Source: Eubacterium sp. (GTDB lineage Bacteria > Bacillota > Clostridia > Oscillospirales > Acutalibacteraceae). From it: DNA of 38,376 bases. Positions 7,675 through 14,270 of this stretch are shown one piece after another. Within the stretch, counting starts at the first letter, position 1. The number at the start of each line of letters is the position of its first letter. Location of the stretch: NCBI GenBank assembly GCA_017463985.1, contig JAFUEH010000035.1, positions 1 to 38,376 of the forward strand, read 5' to 3'. The translations under genes and the position numbers were made by a program. The notes beneath the pieces are model-generated. The model was not told the origin of the DNA. It did not search any database and worked only from the letters and a program-made list of their open reading frames with translations.

Positions 7675-8721
7675 ATGAATAAAAATACAAAAAAGATCAA
7701 GCTGGGCAATACCTATATCGGCGGTGATGCGCCGGTACTGGTGCAAAGTATGCTCAATATTCCAGCTGACGATATTGAACGCTCTGTTGAACAGGCGGTA
7801 GCGCTGGAAAAGGCCGGCTGCCAGGTCATTCGCTTTGCGGTGCCGAACGAGGAGGCGCTGTCGCTGATCGAGCCGATTAAAAAAGCAACTACCGTGCCGC
7901 TGGTGGCGGATATTCATTTTGATTATCAACTGGCGCTCGGCGCAGCAGAACGGGGGATCGATAAGATCCGCATCAATCCCGGCAATATCGGCAGTGAAGA
8001 TCGCGTGAAGGCGGTAGCAGACAGCTGCCGTCAGCATGGACTGCCGATCCGTATCGGCGTCAATTCCGGCTCACTGGAGAAGCATATTCTGGCAAAATAC
8101 GGTTCACCGACGCCGGAGGCAATGGTGGAGTCCGCGCTGTACCATGCTTCGCTGCTGGAAAAATTTGATTTCGACGATATTGTGATTTCGATTAAATCCT
8201 CGAATGTCAATACCATGCTGCAGGCTTATGAGCTGGCGGCGGAACGCTGCCGCTATCCGCTTCACCTTGGCGTAACAGAGGCCGGTACGAAGCGGATGGG
8301 TATTATCAAATCCGCGATCGGTATCGGCTCGCTGCTGACGAGAGGCATCGGTGATACGATCCGCGTCAGTCTGACCGACGAACCGGTGGAGGAGGTTTAT
8401 GCTGCCTTTGATATTCTGAAGGCAATCGGGCTGAAAACTGATTGCCCCTATTTGATCTCCTGCCCGACCTGCGGCAGAACAAAGATTGACCTGGTCGGCC
8501 TCGCAATGCAGGTGGAGGAACGCCTGCGCGACTGTAAAAAGCCGATCAAGGTAGCCGTTATGGGCTGTATCGTTAACGGCCCCGGCGAAGCGAGAGAAGC
8601 AGATGTCGGCGTAGCGGGCGGCGACGGCTGCGGACTGATTTTTAAGAAGGGCGAAATTCTGCGTAAAGTACCGGAGGACAAGCTCTTAGACGAATTAATG
8701 AAAGAGGTAGATAAACTGTAA
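7675..8721 (+). CDS. ispG: 4-hydroxy-3-methylbut-2-enyl diphosphate synthase
   Basis: 348 residues, the short bacterial form with a TIM barrel followed by a 4Fe-4S domain. It converts MEcPP to HMBPP in the MEP pathway. The cluster ligands C263 and C266 (SCPTCGR), C298 (MGCIVNGPGE) and E305 are all present. The ATG follows GGTGAGATG. Its stop overlaps the polC ATG (TAATG), so the two are translationally coupled. With dxr it covers two steps of the pathway in this unit; the other MEP genes are not in the window. Confidence 0.97.
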   Translation: MNKNTKKIKLGNTYIGGDAPVLVQSMLNIPADDIERSVEQAVALEKAGCQVIRFAVPNEEALSLIEPIKKATTVPLVADIHFDYQLALGAAERGIDKIRINPGNIGSEDRVKAVADSCRQHGLPIRIGVNSGSLEKHILAKYGSPTPEAMVESALYHASLLEKFDFDDIVISIKSSNVNTMLQAYELAAERCRYPLHLGVTEAGTKRMGIIKSAIGIGSLLTRGIGDTIRVSLTDEPVEEVYAAFDILKAIGLKTDCPYLISCPTCGRTKIDLVGLAMQVEERLRDCKKPIKVAVMGCIVNGPGEAREADVGVAGGDGCGLIFKKGEILRKVPEDKLLDELMKEVDKL

Positions 8722-11700
8722 TGACACAGTTTTATGAAATATTTTCTGATTATATTAACTGCGACGAATTACAGCAGCTGACTTATACATATATCGAACA
8801 GTTTAAGGTGCGGCGCGCCTCGCGTCAGCTGACGCTGGGACTGTTTTCCGATACCCTGATCGACTATGCCGTGATCGCAAAAGCAGAGCAGGCACTGGCG
8901 CAGGCGCTGTCGCTGAAGAAAGCGACGGTGGAAGTGCGTTACGACCCGTCACTGTTCCGTTTAGAGGATATTGAAAAGATCCTGTCTCATATCAGCGGCA
9001 AGCATACCGTCGTCAACGGCTTCTTTGAAGGCGCAGAGGCTGAGCTGGTGGACGACACCTTGACAGTCTGTCTGAAACGCGGCGGCAAGGATATTCTGGA
9101 AGCGCAGAAGATCGACAGCGCGATTGCCTCGCTGCTGAGCAAGCAGTTTGATCTTGATTATACTGTTTCTTTCCTTGAAACGCAGGCGTATGATATTGAC
9201 AGCGCTGTGAAGGAGGCTGCAAAGCAAAAACGGCAGGAGGAAGCAGCCAGACAGAAGCAGCTGCAGCAGGAGGCTGAGGAGGCGGAGAAAAACGCCGTCC
9301 ATCAGCGCTGGGGCACGCTGCCGATCTATAAGGACACGCGCAAGGTAATTTTTGGCCGTCCGATTTCGGAAAAGCCGAAGCCGATGGCGGAGATTGATCC
9401 GGACGACGGCGTGATCACCGTGTGGGGCGATGTGCTCAAAAGCGAAGCGCGGGATATGCGCCGCGGCGGCTCTAAGGCCTTCAATTTTGACATCAGCGAC
9501 TATACCTCCTCGGTTTCCTGCCGTATGTATGACTATGCTTCAACGCTCAATCCGGTGATTGAAGAGGTAGAAAGTGCCGGCACGGTGATCGTCAGCGGCG
9601 TCTATACGTATGACGATTATGTCGGCGGCTTTATCCTAAAGCCGCGGAGCATTGAACGGGTAAAGAAGGCAGTGAAAACGGACGACGCACCCGAAAAGCG
9701 CGTGGAGCTGCACTTGCATACCTCTATGTCCGAAATGGACGGTATCACCGCTCCGAAAAAGCTGATTGAACGTGCGATTCAGTGGGGGCATAAGGCCATT
9801 GCTGTGACCGATCACGGCGTGGTGCAGGCATTGCCGGAGGCGTATGCTGCCGCCGGTAAGGGCAGCAAGATTAAGCTGATCCTTGGTATGGAGGGTTATT
9901 TGGTTGATGATTCGCTGTACCCCGATTATATGCACCTAAAAAATAAGGAGTACCGCCGCCACCATATTATTCTGCTGGTGAAGGAGGATAACTCGCTGGA
10001 TGAATCTATTCCGCCGGAGGAACGTAAATACGGCCGCAAAAACCTGTATGAAATGATTTCCTATTCCAACGTGAAATCCTTTAAGGGACGGCCGCTGATC
10101 CCCAAGTCCATGCTGGCGCAAAAGCGCGACGGGCTGATCATCGGCTCTGCGTGCGAGCAGGGTGAAATTATTCAGGCAATCCTGCGCGGCGAATCGCAGG
10201 AGGAAATTGAACGTCTTGCCTCCTTTTATGATTATATTGAGATCCAACCGACCGGTAACAACGCTTTCATGATCCGCTCAGAAAAGGAGCTGCATCAAAG
10301 CATTAATTCCGAAAAGGATCTGATCCGTCTCAATCAGCGGATGGTGGAGCTTGCCGATAAGCTCGGCAAGCCGGTGGTAGCAACGGGCGACGTTCATTTT
10401 ATGGACGAAAAGGACGCCAAGTTCCGTGCGATCATTATGGCGTCAAAGGGCTTTACCGACGCTGATAATCAGGCACCGCTGTATTTTAAAACAACGGAGG
10501 AAATGCTGCAGGATTTTGCATGGGCAGGGGAGCGCGCCAAGGAATTTGTTGTGGACAACCCCAACAAAATTGCGGATATGATTCAGGACAATATTCCGCC
10601 GATCCCGCCTGGCACCTTCCAGCCGTACATTAAAGGCGCTGACGACGAGCTGCGTGAAAAGTGCTGGAGCATGGCGAAGTCACTGTACGGTGATCCGGTT
10701 CCGGAGTATGTGGCGTCCCGTCTGACAAGAGAGCTGGATTCGATCATCTCTAACGGTTACGGCGTGCTTTATGTTATTGCTAAGCGATTGGTAGAGGAGA
10801 GCGAGCGCAACGGCTATCTTGTCGGTTCCAGAGGCTCTGTCGGTTCCTCGCTGGCCGCGCACTTTGGCGGTATTTCAGAGGTAAATCCGCTGGCGCCGCA
10901 CTATTATTGCAAGCAGTGCAAATACAGCGAATTCTTTACGCATGGCGAATATGGCTCCGGCTTTGATCTGCCGCCGAAAAACTGTCCGCATTGCGGCGAG
11001 CCGCTGAAACGTGATGGGCATGAGATTCCGTTTGAAACCTTCCTTGGCTTCAAGGGAGACAAGGAGCCGGATATCGACCTGAATTTCTCCGGTGAAGTGC
11101 AGGGAAAAATTCATCGTTTTACCGAAACGCTTTTCGGCAAGGAATACGTATTCAAGGCCGGCACCATGGCGACGGTGGCGGATAAGACCGCTTACGGCTA
11201 CGTGCGCAAATATTTGGAGGAGCGCGAGCTGCTGAATATTACGCCAAAGGCGGAAATTGACCGCCTCACGGTTGGCTGTACTGGTATTAAGCGTACCACC
11301 GGTCAGCATCCCGGCGGTATGGTCGTTGTACCCGATAAATACACGGTAGAGGATTTTACCCCGATTCAATATCCGTCAAACGATGAAAAGAAGGGTACCT
11401 ATACCACCCATTTTGACTTTAAAAATTCACTGCATGATACCTTGCTGAAGCTCGACGAGCTTGGTCACGATAACCCGACGCTTTATAAATATCTTGAGGA
11501 TGCTACCGGTATCCCGGTGATGGATGTGGATCTTTCTGACCCGAAGCTGTACGAGCTGATCACTTCACCGGCGCCGCTGGGTGTGACCGCGGAGGAAATT
11601 GACTGTAAAACCGGCACGCTGGCGATCCCTGAAATGGGTACCGGCTTCGTTATCGGTATGCTGCTGGAGGCAAAACCGAAAACCTTTGCCGATCTGCTGC

Positions 11701-12554
11701 AGATCTCAGGTCTGTCGCACGGTACCGACGTGTGGCTCGGCAATGCGCGTGATCTGATTCAAAACGGTACGTGTACGATTTCTGACGTCATCGGCTGCCG
11801 TGATGATATTATGACCTACCTGATCCATAAGGCAGAGAAATACGAAAAAGAAACCGGCAAGGAATCGCCGCTCAAAAACGTTGACTGCTTTAAGATCATG
11901 GAATATACCCGTAAGGGAAAGGCACCAAAGGAGCTGCCGCCTTACGAGGAAGCGATGAAAACCATCGGCGTTGAGCAGTGGTATATTGACTCCTGCTACA
12001 AAATCAAGTATATGTTCCCGAAGGCACACGCAGCGGCTTATGTTATCGCCGCGCTGCGGATCGCGTGGTATAAAATCTATTATCCGCTGCAGTTTTATTC
12101 GGCTTATTTTACCGTGCGCGGTGATGCGATCGACGCAAAAGCGGCGGTGGAGGGCCGTGAAGCGGTACAGAAAAAGATGAAGGATTACCACGCCAAAAAG
12201 GACAATAAGCTTGAGATAACGCAAAAGGAAGAGGATACCTACGTCGTCAATCAGCTGGTGAATGAAATGCTGGCACGCGGCTTTGCTTTTTTGCCGGTGG
12301 ATCTTTACAAGTCAGACTGGCGCGTATACAAGATCGAAGATGGGAAAATTCGCTTGCCGTTTTCGGCGGTTCCCGGCATCGGCGCTACCGCTGCTATGTC
12401 GCTTGCGGAGGCTGTACAGCGCAATCCCGACGGCTTTATTGCTGCCGATGATCTGGCGAGTGAACCCGGTGTCGGCAATTCCGTAGTGGACGCCCTCAGA
12501 GAGGTCGGCGCCTTGGGCGATTTGCCGGCCAGCAAGCAAATATCTTTCTTTTAA
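8721..12554 (+). CDS. polC: DNA polymerase III alpha subunit PolC lacking the exonuclease domain
   Basis: 1277 residues, about 160 shorter than typical PolC. Domain order: an N-terminal clamp-loader-type region (1 to about 200, with a Gln/Glu/Lys-rich linker), an OB fold (about 235-315), and a PHP domain beginning VELHLHT at 328. The zinc fingers C730/C733 and C755/C758 follow. The catalytic P-D784-I-D786-L-N motif marks the palm, and a fingers/HhH region leads to a C-terminal clamp-binding QISFF. In usual PolC the PHP domain is split by a DEDD 3'-5' exonuclease. Here GMEGYLVDD (389-397) is followed after about 43 residues by NLYEMIS (441), and no FDxETTG-type motif exists anywhere. Candidate PHP metal ligands (HLH, TDH, GME, HHI, SAC, DVH) are present. 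The family assignment is sure; the loss of the exonuclease is seen directly, and its effect on fidelity is inferred. Confidence 0.97.
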   Translation: MTQFYEIFSDYINCDELQQLTYTYIEQFKVRRASRQLTLGLFSDTLIDYAVIAKAEQALAQALSLKKATVEVRYDPSLFRLEDIEKILSHISGKHTVVNGFFEGAEAELVDDTLTVCLKRGGKDILEAQKIDSAIASLLSKQFDLDYTVSFLETQAYDIDSAVKEAAKQKRQEEAARQKQLQQEAEEAEKNAVHQRWGTLPIYKDTRKVIFGRPISEKPKPMAEIDPDDGVITVWGDVLKSEARDMRRGGSKAFNFDISDYTSSVSCRMYDYASTLNPVIEEVESAGTVIVSGVYTYDDYVGGFILKPRSIERVKKAVKTDDAPEKRVELHLHTSMSEMDGITAPKKLIERAIQWGHKAIAVTDHGVVQALPEAYAAAGKGSKIKLILGMEGYLVDDSLYPDYMHLKNKEYRRHHIILLVKEDNSLDESIPPEERKYGRKNLYEMISYSNVKSFKGRPLIPKSMLAQKRDGLIIGSACEQGEIIQAILRGESQEEIERLASFYDYIEIQPTGNNAFMIRSEKELHQSINSEKDLIRLNQRMVELADKLGKPVVATGDVHFMDEKDAKFRAIIMASKGFTDADNQAPLYFKTTEEMLQDFAWAGERAKEFVVDNPNKIADMIQDNIPPIPPGTFQPYIKGADDELREKCWSMAKSLYGDPVPEYVASRLTRELDSIISNGYGVLYVIAKRLVEESERNGYLVGSRGSVGSSLAAHFGGISEVNPLAPHYYCKQCKYSEFFTHGEYGSGFDLPPKNCPHCGEPLKRDGHEIPFETFLGFKGDKEPDIDLNFSGEVQGKIHRFTETLFGKEYVFKAGTMATVADKTAYGYVRKYLEERELLNITPKAEIDRLTVGCTGIKRTTGQHPGGMVVVPDKYTVEDFTPIQYPSNDEKKGTYTTHFDFKNSLHDTLLKLDELGHDNPTLYKYLEDATGIPVMDVDLSDPKLYELITSPAPLGVTAEEIDCKTGTLAIPEMGTGFVIGMLLEAKPKTFADLLQISGLSHGTDVWLGNARDLIQNGTCTISDVIGCRDDIMTYLIHKAEKYEKETGKESPLKNVDCFKIMEYTRKGKAPKELPPYEEAMKTIGVEQWYIDSCYKIKYMFPKAHAAAYVIAALRIAWYKIYYPLQFYSAYFTVRGDAIDAKAAVEGREAVQKKMKDYHAKKDNKLEITQKEEDTYVVNQLVNEMLARGFAFLPVDLYKSDWRVYKIEDGKIRLPFSAVPGIGATAAMSLAEAVQRNPDGFIAADDLASEPGVGNSVVDALREVGALGDLPASKQISFF

Positions 12555-12656: not shown

Positions 12657-14270
12657 ATGAAACGATATTCCAGAATCACCCCCGAAGGGTCGAGAGATTT
12701 TCTGTTTGAAGAATGTGATGACAGACGCGTCGTGGAACACACGCTCGCGGATCTGTTTAAGGACAGCGGTTACCGTAAGGTAATGACGCCAGCGATCGAA
12801 TTCTTTGACGTGTTCAAAAGTGATAATACCGGTGTGGAAGCAGAGGAGATGTTCAAGCTCACAGACGCGAAGGGAAGAACCACTGTGCTGCGGCCGGATA
12901 ATACCATGCCGATCGCCCGTATGGTGGCTACCCGTCTGACGGCGGACGATCTGCCGGTTAGACTGTATTATAACCAAAGCGTTTATATCCGCAGCAAGGA
13001 CTTGGCCGGTAAGACGAATGAAATTGCCCAAAGCGGCATTGAGCTGATTGGCGACGGCAGCATGGAAGCGGATATTGAGGCGATTAAGCTGGCGGTAGAA
13101 TCCTTGCAGCGCTGCCAACTGAATAATTTTAAAATCGAAATCGGCAATGCCGCCTTCTTCAATGCGATTCTGCATCGGATGGCGATTACGGACGAGGACA
13201 AGGCGGATATTTGTAACCTGATTGAGGAAAAAAATTATGCTGCGCTCGGGGATAAGCTTGATAAGCTCGGCAACAGCCGTGAGACGGTCGCCATCAAAGC
13301 GCTGCCGCGTCTGTTTGGCGGCGTAGAGGTGATCGAAAAGGCAAAGCAGCTGTATGATGACCCTGACGCGTACCGCGCGCTGACGTATTTGAAAGCGGTC
13401 TATGAGGCCCTGGTGGAAGCCGGCCTCGGTGACAGCGTGATGCTCGATCTGGGACTGGTAAACCGTAATAATTATTATACGGGTGTGGTTTTCCGCGGCT
13501 ATGCTGAGGGTTCGGGACTGACGATTCTCTCGGGTGGTCGGTATGATAATCTCCTCGGTGAATTCGGGATGCCGGCTCCGGCCATCGGCTTTGGCATAGA
13601 GGTCTCTGCTGTATGCGAGGCCATGCGCGAGGTCATCAACGTCGAACGGCCGTTGCGCATTGCGCTGACGAAGGGCCGGCTAGAGAAAAGCTCCGTTGCC
13701 CTGTTCAAAACGATGGGGCTCGATACCAAGGAGCTGGAGAATAAGGGCAGACGGCTGATCCTGCCGGTGGATAAGTATGAGGCAGTGCTGTCGAAGGCGC
13801 CGGATGTGATCACTTATGTGGAGCACGGCGTGTGCGACATCGGCATTGTCGGTAAAGACACGATCGTTGAACACGGCAGCGCCTTCTACGAGGTGCTGGA
13901 CTTGAATATCGGCAAGTGCCGCTTTGCGCTTGCCTGTCCGAAGGATAGCGATTTTTTCGCCGGTTATAAGCGCAAGGTCGTTGCGTCAAAATATCCTAAG
14001 GTCGCCAAGGAATTCTTTGAAGGCAAGGGTATGGACGTAGAGATCATTAAAATTGAGGGCAGCGTTGAGCTGGCGCCGCTGTTAGGACTGGCGGACGGTA
14101 TTGTGGATATCGTTGAAACCGGCTCTACCCTTAAGGAAAACGGGCTGAAAATTGTGGAGGAGATATTGCCGATCTCGGTAAGAGTCATTGTGAACATGGC
14201 GTCAATGAAACTCAGAAAAGCTGAAATTGAGGGCTTTCTGAATGACCTTGAGCTGGCCAGTCAGGTGTAG
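12657..14270 (+). CDS. hisZG: HisZ-HisG fusion: ATP phosphoribosyltransferase, regulatory plus catalytic parts
   Basis: 537 residues in one unbroken frame. Residues 1 to about 328 are HisZ, the histidyl-tRNA-synthetase-like regulatory subunit (ITPEGSRDFL, then LRPDNTMPIAR, and SGGRYDNLLGEFG near 300). From about 332 a complete short-form HisG follows (RIALTKGRL, the VDIVETGSTLKENGL signature). HisG condenses ATP with PRPP in the first, feedback-controlled step of histidine synthesis. The short form needs HisZ, normally a separate protein in a hetero-octamer. The fusion fixes 1:1 stoichiometry. The ATG has no clear Shine-Dalgarno within 12 nt; AAAGG (12621-12625) lies before a small leader hairpin (12625-12647). 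Confidence 0.93.
   Translation: MKRYSRITPEGSRDFLFEECDDRRVVEHTLADLFKDSGYRKVMTPAIEFFDVFKSDNTGVEAEEMFKLTDAKGRTTVLRPDNTMPIARMVATRLTADDLPVRLYYNQSVYIRSKDLAGKTNEIAQSGIELIGDGSMEADIEAIKLAVESLQRCQLNNFKIEIGNAAFFNAILHRMAITDEDKADICNLIEEKNYAALGDKLDKLGNSRETVAIKALPRLFGGVEVIEKAKQLYDDPDAYRALTYLKAVYEALVEAGLGDSVMLDLGLVNRNNYYTGVVFRGYAEGSGLTILSGGRYDNLLGEFGMPAPAIGFGIEVSAVCEAMREVINVERPLRIALTKGRLEKSSVALFKTMGLDTKELENKGRRLILPVDKYEAVLSKAPDVITYVEHGVCDIGIVGKDTIVEHGSAFYEVLDLNIGKCRFALACPKDSDFFAGYKRKVVASKYPKVAKEFFEGKGMDVEIIKIEGSVELAPLLGLADGIVDIVETGSTLKENGLKIVEEILPISVRVIVNMASMKLRKAEIEGFLNDLELASQV

Follow-up and report, generated by a model that had tools for sequence, protein, structure and literature searches.

Absence of the DEDDh exonuclease from a clostridial PolC, its distribution among relatives and the PHP site as candidate proofreader

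The DNA polymerase PolC encoded in a 38,376-nucleotide stretch of DNA from the gut Clostridium Eubacterium sp. (contig JAFUEH010000035.1 of assembly GCA_017463985.1; hereafter the window, meaning the whole stretch analysed) has every part of a PolC except the DEDDh exonuclease (Exo) domain. The gene, polC, is an open frame of 1277 codons without an internal stop (positions 8721..12554, + strand), and its clade belongs to what we take to be the GTDB family Acutalibacteraceae. An earlier note, made from the sequence, had proposed that this PolC lacks its exonuclease through domain loss rather than fragmentation; Pfam matches, alignments to the PRK00448 model and to the PolC structure 9qpc, and a 23-residue spacing between two metal ligands of the PHP domain all bear this out, and the rest of the protein is intact.

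Size and place of the missing domain

Along the 1277 residues, Pfam matched the N-I and N-II domains, an unbroken PHP domain (329-508), Pol3 alpha, fingers and HHH, and up to E 0.1 it found no match for an RNase_T exonuclease, in line with the earlier statement that no exonuclease lies elsewhere in the protein. Both PolC models were matched above their cut-offs (PRK00448, the NCBIfam PolC model, with 1360.9 bits against 873; TIGR01405 with 1230.9 bits against 1043.45), and the PRK00448 alignment resumed at model position 624 for residue 436. Full-length Enterococcus faecium PolC (9qpc; about 50% identity in the structural alignment) aligned in two blocks, one running up to position 435 of its chain and the other starting from 649, and this break falls where the exonuclease sits, which in PolC is between the third and fourth PHP strands (PMC12592400).

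The PHP domain itself is complete in its metal ligands. Its first part (residues 328-397, 9702..9911, +) holds H331, H333, D340, H365 and E391, and its second part (about residues 415-600, 9963..10520, +) holds H415, C478, D557 and H559; the residue numbering used earlier was correct (V328 begins at base 9702). Between ligands five and six (E391 and H415) lies a loop of 23 residues (392-414, 9894..9962, +), delimited by ligand spacing, at the site of the DEDDh exonuclease in other PolCs. We compared it across 149 PolCs (86 from the window's family and 63 from other families, hand-picked from search lists; the sample is not random, and its 76 exo-less to 73 exo-containing sequences are no estimate of frequency). 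The spacing was 16-39 residues in the 76 exo-less PolCs, 181-219 in the 73 exo-containing PolCs and 18-21 in 70 DnaE sequences of the family, and the segment from GMEGY to NLYEMIS was likewise bimodal (32-55 residues in 76, 197-235 in 73). About 190 residues are thus missing (median spacing 213 versus 23), rather than the 160-180 first estimated. The segment of about 43 residues described at this place is indeed short, but it is not an exonuclease remnant: it comprises H415, an ordinary PHP strand, a short loop and an insert of ~13 amino acids. This insert, placed around residues 422-437 (9984..10031, +) by segment lengths and junction sequences, is lineage-specific, being present in L001, L007, L008 and L011 and not in L009 or L010. 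The loss has left a DnaE-like PHP loop with no stump, because the spacing of 23 is close to the 18-21 of DnaE.

An exonuclease inserted in the PHP domain has been treated as PolC-defining (PMC11963600) and as a hallmark (PMC3919608), and this feature of PolC membership is absent here; what the window encodes belongs to the exo-less PolC variant of Clostridia, in which only the Exo insertion is missing. The insert is therefore unsafe as a definition of PolC, because the window PolC groups with PolCs both by models and on the tree.

Distribution and recurrence of the loss

The window is a single contig of a 41-contig assembly, and the earlier note had named an assembly deletion at 9910-10030 as a way in which it could be wrong. 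Comparison refutes an assembly or annotation artefact, to which we give practically no weight: besides the open frame without a stop, the same state at the same place occurs in both sampled congeners of the window genome and in 71 of 71 close relatives among named genomes for which the PHP columns were readable (76 loci were scanned, five without readable columns), one of them the isolate [Eubacterium] coprostanoligenes ATCC 51222. A further 28 PolC loci were all exo-less among the matches listed, partly because a score-ordered list favours exo-less sequences. One related record, JAMPEQ010000001.1 (L234), is titled Bacteroides sp. and carries a PolC 72% identical to that of the window; its title looks like that of a misnamed bin.

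Loss of the exonuclease looks recurrent on the trees. On a FastTree phylogeny of PHP and polymerase columns, excluding Exo columns (149 tips; partial or duplicate loci L022, L034, L042, L051, L053, L056, L059 and L099 and two mini-PolC paralogues, L103 and L104, were left out), exo-less and exo-containing states changed 17-18 times, and 12 of these changes were forced by supported branches. The exo-less sequences formed 18 maximal clades, eight of them single tips and several on weakly supported branches, so that the forced minimum of 12 changes is the figure to read. An IQ-TREE analysis of a 51-tip subset gave 12 changes, 7 of them forced, and on that subset a single exo-less clade was rejected by 750 log units (p-AU 4.9e-42; quick search, LG+G4). 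Both kinds of PolC occur within one genus (g15). Exo and polymerase distances were concordant among 71 exo-containing PolCs (Mantel r 0.856, compared with ≤0.291 in 2000 permutations), and because they agree, vertical inheritance of the Exo domain with repeated losses is the simplest reading. Re-gain by recombination was considered and is disfavoured by this co-inheritance, though individual cases may remain.

What appears to be a half-way stage was found in genus g17, in which the PolCs of two species (L119 and L120) retain an in-frame Exo segment of 197-201 residues with a broken DEDDh set (aligned columns --D-N and MDD-D). RNase_T gave no match at E 1e-5 at these PolCs among the matches listed, in which the one and two RNase_T matches of the two genomes fall at other places. 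The two Exo segments differ at 68.5% of 146 aligned positions, whereas the Exo difference had a median of 32% and never exceeded 41% in 91 pairs of intact domains whose polymerases are about as far apart; the PHP ligands are complete in both proteins and the rest of PolC is conserved. Together, these features suggest a domain in decay.

Candidate proofreaders in the absence of the exonuclease

For the source of proofreading, the earlier note had offered the PHP site, a separate DnaQ-like protein or reduced fidelity. The first fits best, the second is disfavoured as a general answer and the third keeps some probability. The PHP ligand set HHDHEHCDH was complete in 76/76 exo-less and 73/73 exo-containing PolCs, in 28/28 of the further exo-less PolCs among the matches listed and in 70 of the 71 named relatives, the 71st having one unread residue. 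The window PolC carries the nine-ligand motif HHDHEH[C/H]DH (as used in PMC12926913), with Asp (D557) at ligand eight. Geobacillus PolC has Asn at this ligand, and no PHP exonuclease could be detected in it; the same Asn separates Gka PolC from the window PolC. In Mycobacterium tuberculosis, the PHP exonuclease was abolished by D226N (PMC5636811), in a residue that we read as the same ligand as D557. Like M. tuberculosis DnaE1, the window PolC has all nine residues of the metal site and, next to it, a DnaE-like loop; M. tuberculosis DnaE1 differs in being of the DnaE family and in having demonstrated activity, whereas that of the window PolC is predicted.

The window genome (97% complete, 41 contigs) yielded one PolC and one DnaE, and the second full-length PolC whose presence would have spoken against a loss in the replicase was looked for and not found. 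Its DnaE, a 1165-amino-acid open frame (G000:C16) that co-occurs with PolC, has a complete PHP site, and on that basis, rather than from a DnaE1/DnaE3 tree, we call it DnaE1. Across the sampled genomes, the DnaE PHP site was complete in 33/34 exo-less and 31/31 exo-containing genomes (70 DnaE sequences in all). The exception is G022, a 1.1 Mb genome in which the DnaE PHP site (locus L345) reads HHNDERYNY and is destroyed while that of the exo-less PolC is intact; judged from these residues, the PolC PHP site may be the only replicase proofreading site in this genome.

The window PolC is naturally exo-less, and we consider it slightly more probable than not that proofreading falls mainly to the PHP sites of the two polymerases, PolC and DnaE1. 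Comparison with relatives shows that an ancestor of the [Eubacterium] coprostanoligenes-like clade lost the DEDDh exonuclease in frame from the loop of its PHP domain, which thereby closed up and took on a DnaE-like shape; proofreading would then be carried out in cis by the trinuclear-metal PHP site of PolC itself and possibly also in trans by the DnaE1 PHP site, with mismatch repair as a backup. Such a loss is probably tolerated because most Clostridia set out with three proofreading candidates (PolC Exo, PolC PHP and DnaE1 PHP; PMC12926913). The wider proposition, that many gut Clostridia independently dropped the DEDDh domain from a main replicase and proofread by the PHP sites of two polymerases only, some lineages having no detectable RNase_T protein anywhere and G022 having no intact replicase proofreading site left but that in the PolC PHP domain, is plausible but falls somewhat short of an even chance.

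Several points weigh against PHP proofreading. No report of PHP nuclease activity in any clostridial PolC was found in the open-access literature searched. The ligands are equally complete in all 73 exo-containing PolCs, and that they were kept can therefore not be put down to compensation. The ratio of PHP to polymerase rates was 1.18 in exo-less clades versus 1.26 on exo-containing branches, with an interval that spans zero; compensation through stronger PHP constraint was accordingly rejected on these branch-length ratios, taken on a fixed tree, which do not differ significantly (crude pairwise ratios hinted at stronger constraint, but the pairs are not independent). The PHP domain is structural in Escherichia coli, where it is inactive (PMC3666897), and a structural role could by itself be enough to preserve the PHP fold, although it would less obviously preserve every one of the nine ligands. 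Finally, Geobacillus PolC is near-complete in its ligands yet inactive, and its authors suggest that non-ligand residues matter.

A scan of the window genome for a stand-alone DnaQ-like exonuclease, as the earlier note had recommended, returned two such proteins, neither of them conserved, among three RNase_T proteins (the third, P0003, is KapD-like). P0001 (240 amino acids; L005 1462-2184, G000:C32) carries what looks by eye like a DEDDh set, and among NCBIfam models it matches PolC best (85 bits). It is prophage-encoded, however, next to integrase, repressor, Gam, Erf and replication initiator genes; it shares 63.6% identity with a faecal phage protein and 58.9% with one of Faecalibacterium phage FP_Lagaffe. 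None of the other 149 family genomes sampled encodes a close relative of P0001, whose best non-self match there (40% identity) is the Exo domain of a PolC. P0002 (560 amino acids, exonuclease plus BRCT; L004 1480-3162, G000:C7) scores higher than P0001 against PolC models (110 bits) and best against a model of DnaQ type, and it sits outside any prophage among ordinary chromosomal genes of metabolism and transport. Its full-length match was found in none of the other 149 genomes; its nuclease part matched at E 1e-20 in 10 of the 149 (five exo-less, five exo-containing), not including the congener G149. P0002 is a possible local proofreading partner in the window genome.

Nor do exo-less genomes hold an excess of such proteins. 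Non-PolC RNase_T proteins averaged 1.00 per exo-less genome (n=35) versus 1.02 per exo-containing genome (n=66; p=0.70), a comparison that left out genomes <90% complete, those with a decayed Exo domain (G016, G146), those with a split or partial PolC (G027, G120) and G023 (a PolC fragment, exo-less by contiguous match, with one RNase_T match), and that kept G018, which has no RNase_T match and whose PolC is also a fragment. In 9/35 near-complete exo-less genomes there was no RNase_T match at E 1e-5, and six of the nine also had no candidate in a looser look; 8/66 exo-containing genomes likewise lacked an RNase_T protein besides PolC. With these counts, the prophage context of P0001 and the non-conservation of P0002, a stand-alone DnaQ is rejected as a general substitute, and proofreading in trans by a separate exonuclease of this kind is improbable.

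That the window PolC is the main replicase is an assumption, because a DnaE whose PHP site is complete is encoded in the genome as well. Had DnaE1, with its own PHP proofreader, taken over bulk replication and left PolC for special situations, the exonuclease would be dispensable, a possibility raised for Clostridia in PMC3919608. The complete DnaE PHP site in 33/34 exo-less genomes fits this, as does the finding of a PolC match at E 1e-100 in 106 of 115 near-complete family genomes, so that some have none. The divergence of PolC relative to DnaE points the same way in the best-filled distance bin (1.04 exo-less versus 0.85 exo-containing; 290 and 299 pairs), but other bins are inconsistent (0.52, from one pair, versus 0.73; 0.78 versus 0.80; 0.85 versus 0.81, from five pairs) and the pairs are not independent. 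As PolC also keeps its polymerase motifs and clamp-like C-terminal motif, and as G022 kept the PHP site of its exo-less PolC while that of DnaE was destroyed, we regard demotion of PolC as unlikely, though it deserves consideration.

Proofreading might instead simply be reduced, with base selectivity and mismatch repair sufficing and the PHP domain structural, which we think rather unlikely. Exo-less genomes tend to be smaller (median 1.8 versus 2.3 Mb, p=6e-4), 9/35 have no RNase_T match as described above, and MutL is kept in 33/35 of the near-complete exo-less genomes. Among 7 independent pairs the size link finds no support (median p 1), and genome reduction as a driver of Exo loss was discarded on that ground despite the significant raw difference. 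All nine PHP ligands are retained, whereas the inactive PHP domain of E. coli has five replaced, and one 96%-complete genome (G086) has no MutL match either. In this genome of 1.0 Mb, whose PolC is exo-less, nothing matched RNase_T at E 1e-5 or MutL at E 1e-20.

Known systems, other features of the gene and its neighbours

The exo-less PolC is already known as a variant, though one that has hardly been studied, and the window PolC is a further member of it. In PMC3919608, from 2013, exo-less PolCs made up 6% of PolC sequences and 16% of those in systems of PolC plus DnaE1; apart from one extra copy in Thermotogae, all came from Clostridia and Negativicutes. The window PolC is of the same kind, sharing the absence of Exo, the clostridial host and the pairing with DnaE1. 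Engineered delta-Exo PolCs (PMC3656037, PMC12592400) differ in being laboratory truncations without the N-terminal domain, and the canonical self-proofreading PolCs of E. faecium and Bacillus subtilis share all other domains with the window PolC, in which the DEDDh domain is missing. Added here are the placement on a tree with its repeated losses, an intermediate in decay and an inventory of RNase_T proteins; we found no paper on recurrent Exo loss or on the biochemistry of a natural exo-less PolC in the open-access literature (titles and starts of abstracts).

These results bear on how an unstudied PolC plus DnaE1 replication system proofreads, and they offer natural experiments in the recurrent losses, in a domain halfway through decay and in a strain-collection isolate whose PolC is exo-less. 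If the PHP site does proofread here, PHP proofreading would extend from DnaE to PolC. There is also a practical side: a 2025 drug-target survey accepted PolC only with an RNase_T insert in PHP and kept 620 of 1,158 candidates (PMC11963600), a filter that would discard exo-less PolCs, whose share of the discarded candidates is not stated there.

The remaining features follow the PolC domain order (N-terminal domain-OB-PHP-Pol-HhH plus a C-terminal clamp motif). The OB-fold domain (about residues 225-320, 9393..9680, +) is assigned by alignment and model: a weak Pfam tRNA_anti-codon match lies at 244-294 (E 0.021, below cut-off), the 3f2b alignment starts at residue 225 and OB-fold structures match residues 1-94 of the AlphaFold model (PolC residues 225-1277; mean pLDDT 90.5). 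The polymerase active-site motif PDIDLNF (residues 783-789, 11067..11087, +) is identical in 74/76 exo-less and 73/73 exo-containing PolCs, the other two reading PDIDQNF. At the C-terminus, QISFF (12537..12551, +) is a putative clamp-binding motif, identified by sequence only; similar ends (QLSLF, QISLF, QMTLF) occur in both exo-less and exo-containing relatives. From the model and motifs, the window PolC is probably a folded polymerase with a clamp-type C-terminus, and by analogy with the engineered delta-Exo PolCs it would be active.

Short second PolC-like proteins were seen in two other genomes (L371, 8230-10545, -, in G073, 771 amino acids; L372, 7969-10494, -, in G146, 841 amino acids). 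They have PHP, Pol and finger matches only, without the N-terminal, HHH and clamp parts, and their PHP site is degenerate; one keeps PDIDLNF and the other reads PYLVLNY. They lie near genes matching defence models (PDC-S02 and DrmD-like SNF2; PDC-S26 and WYL). In the window, polC lies between ispG and a hisZ-hisG fusion, the latter a single open reading frame at 12657-14270 (+) with a HisZ match (residues 13-324) followed by a HisG match (333-512).
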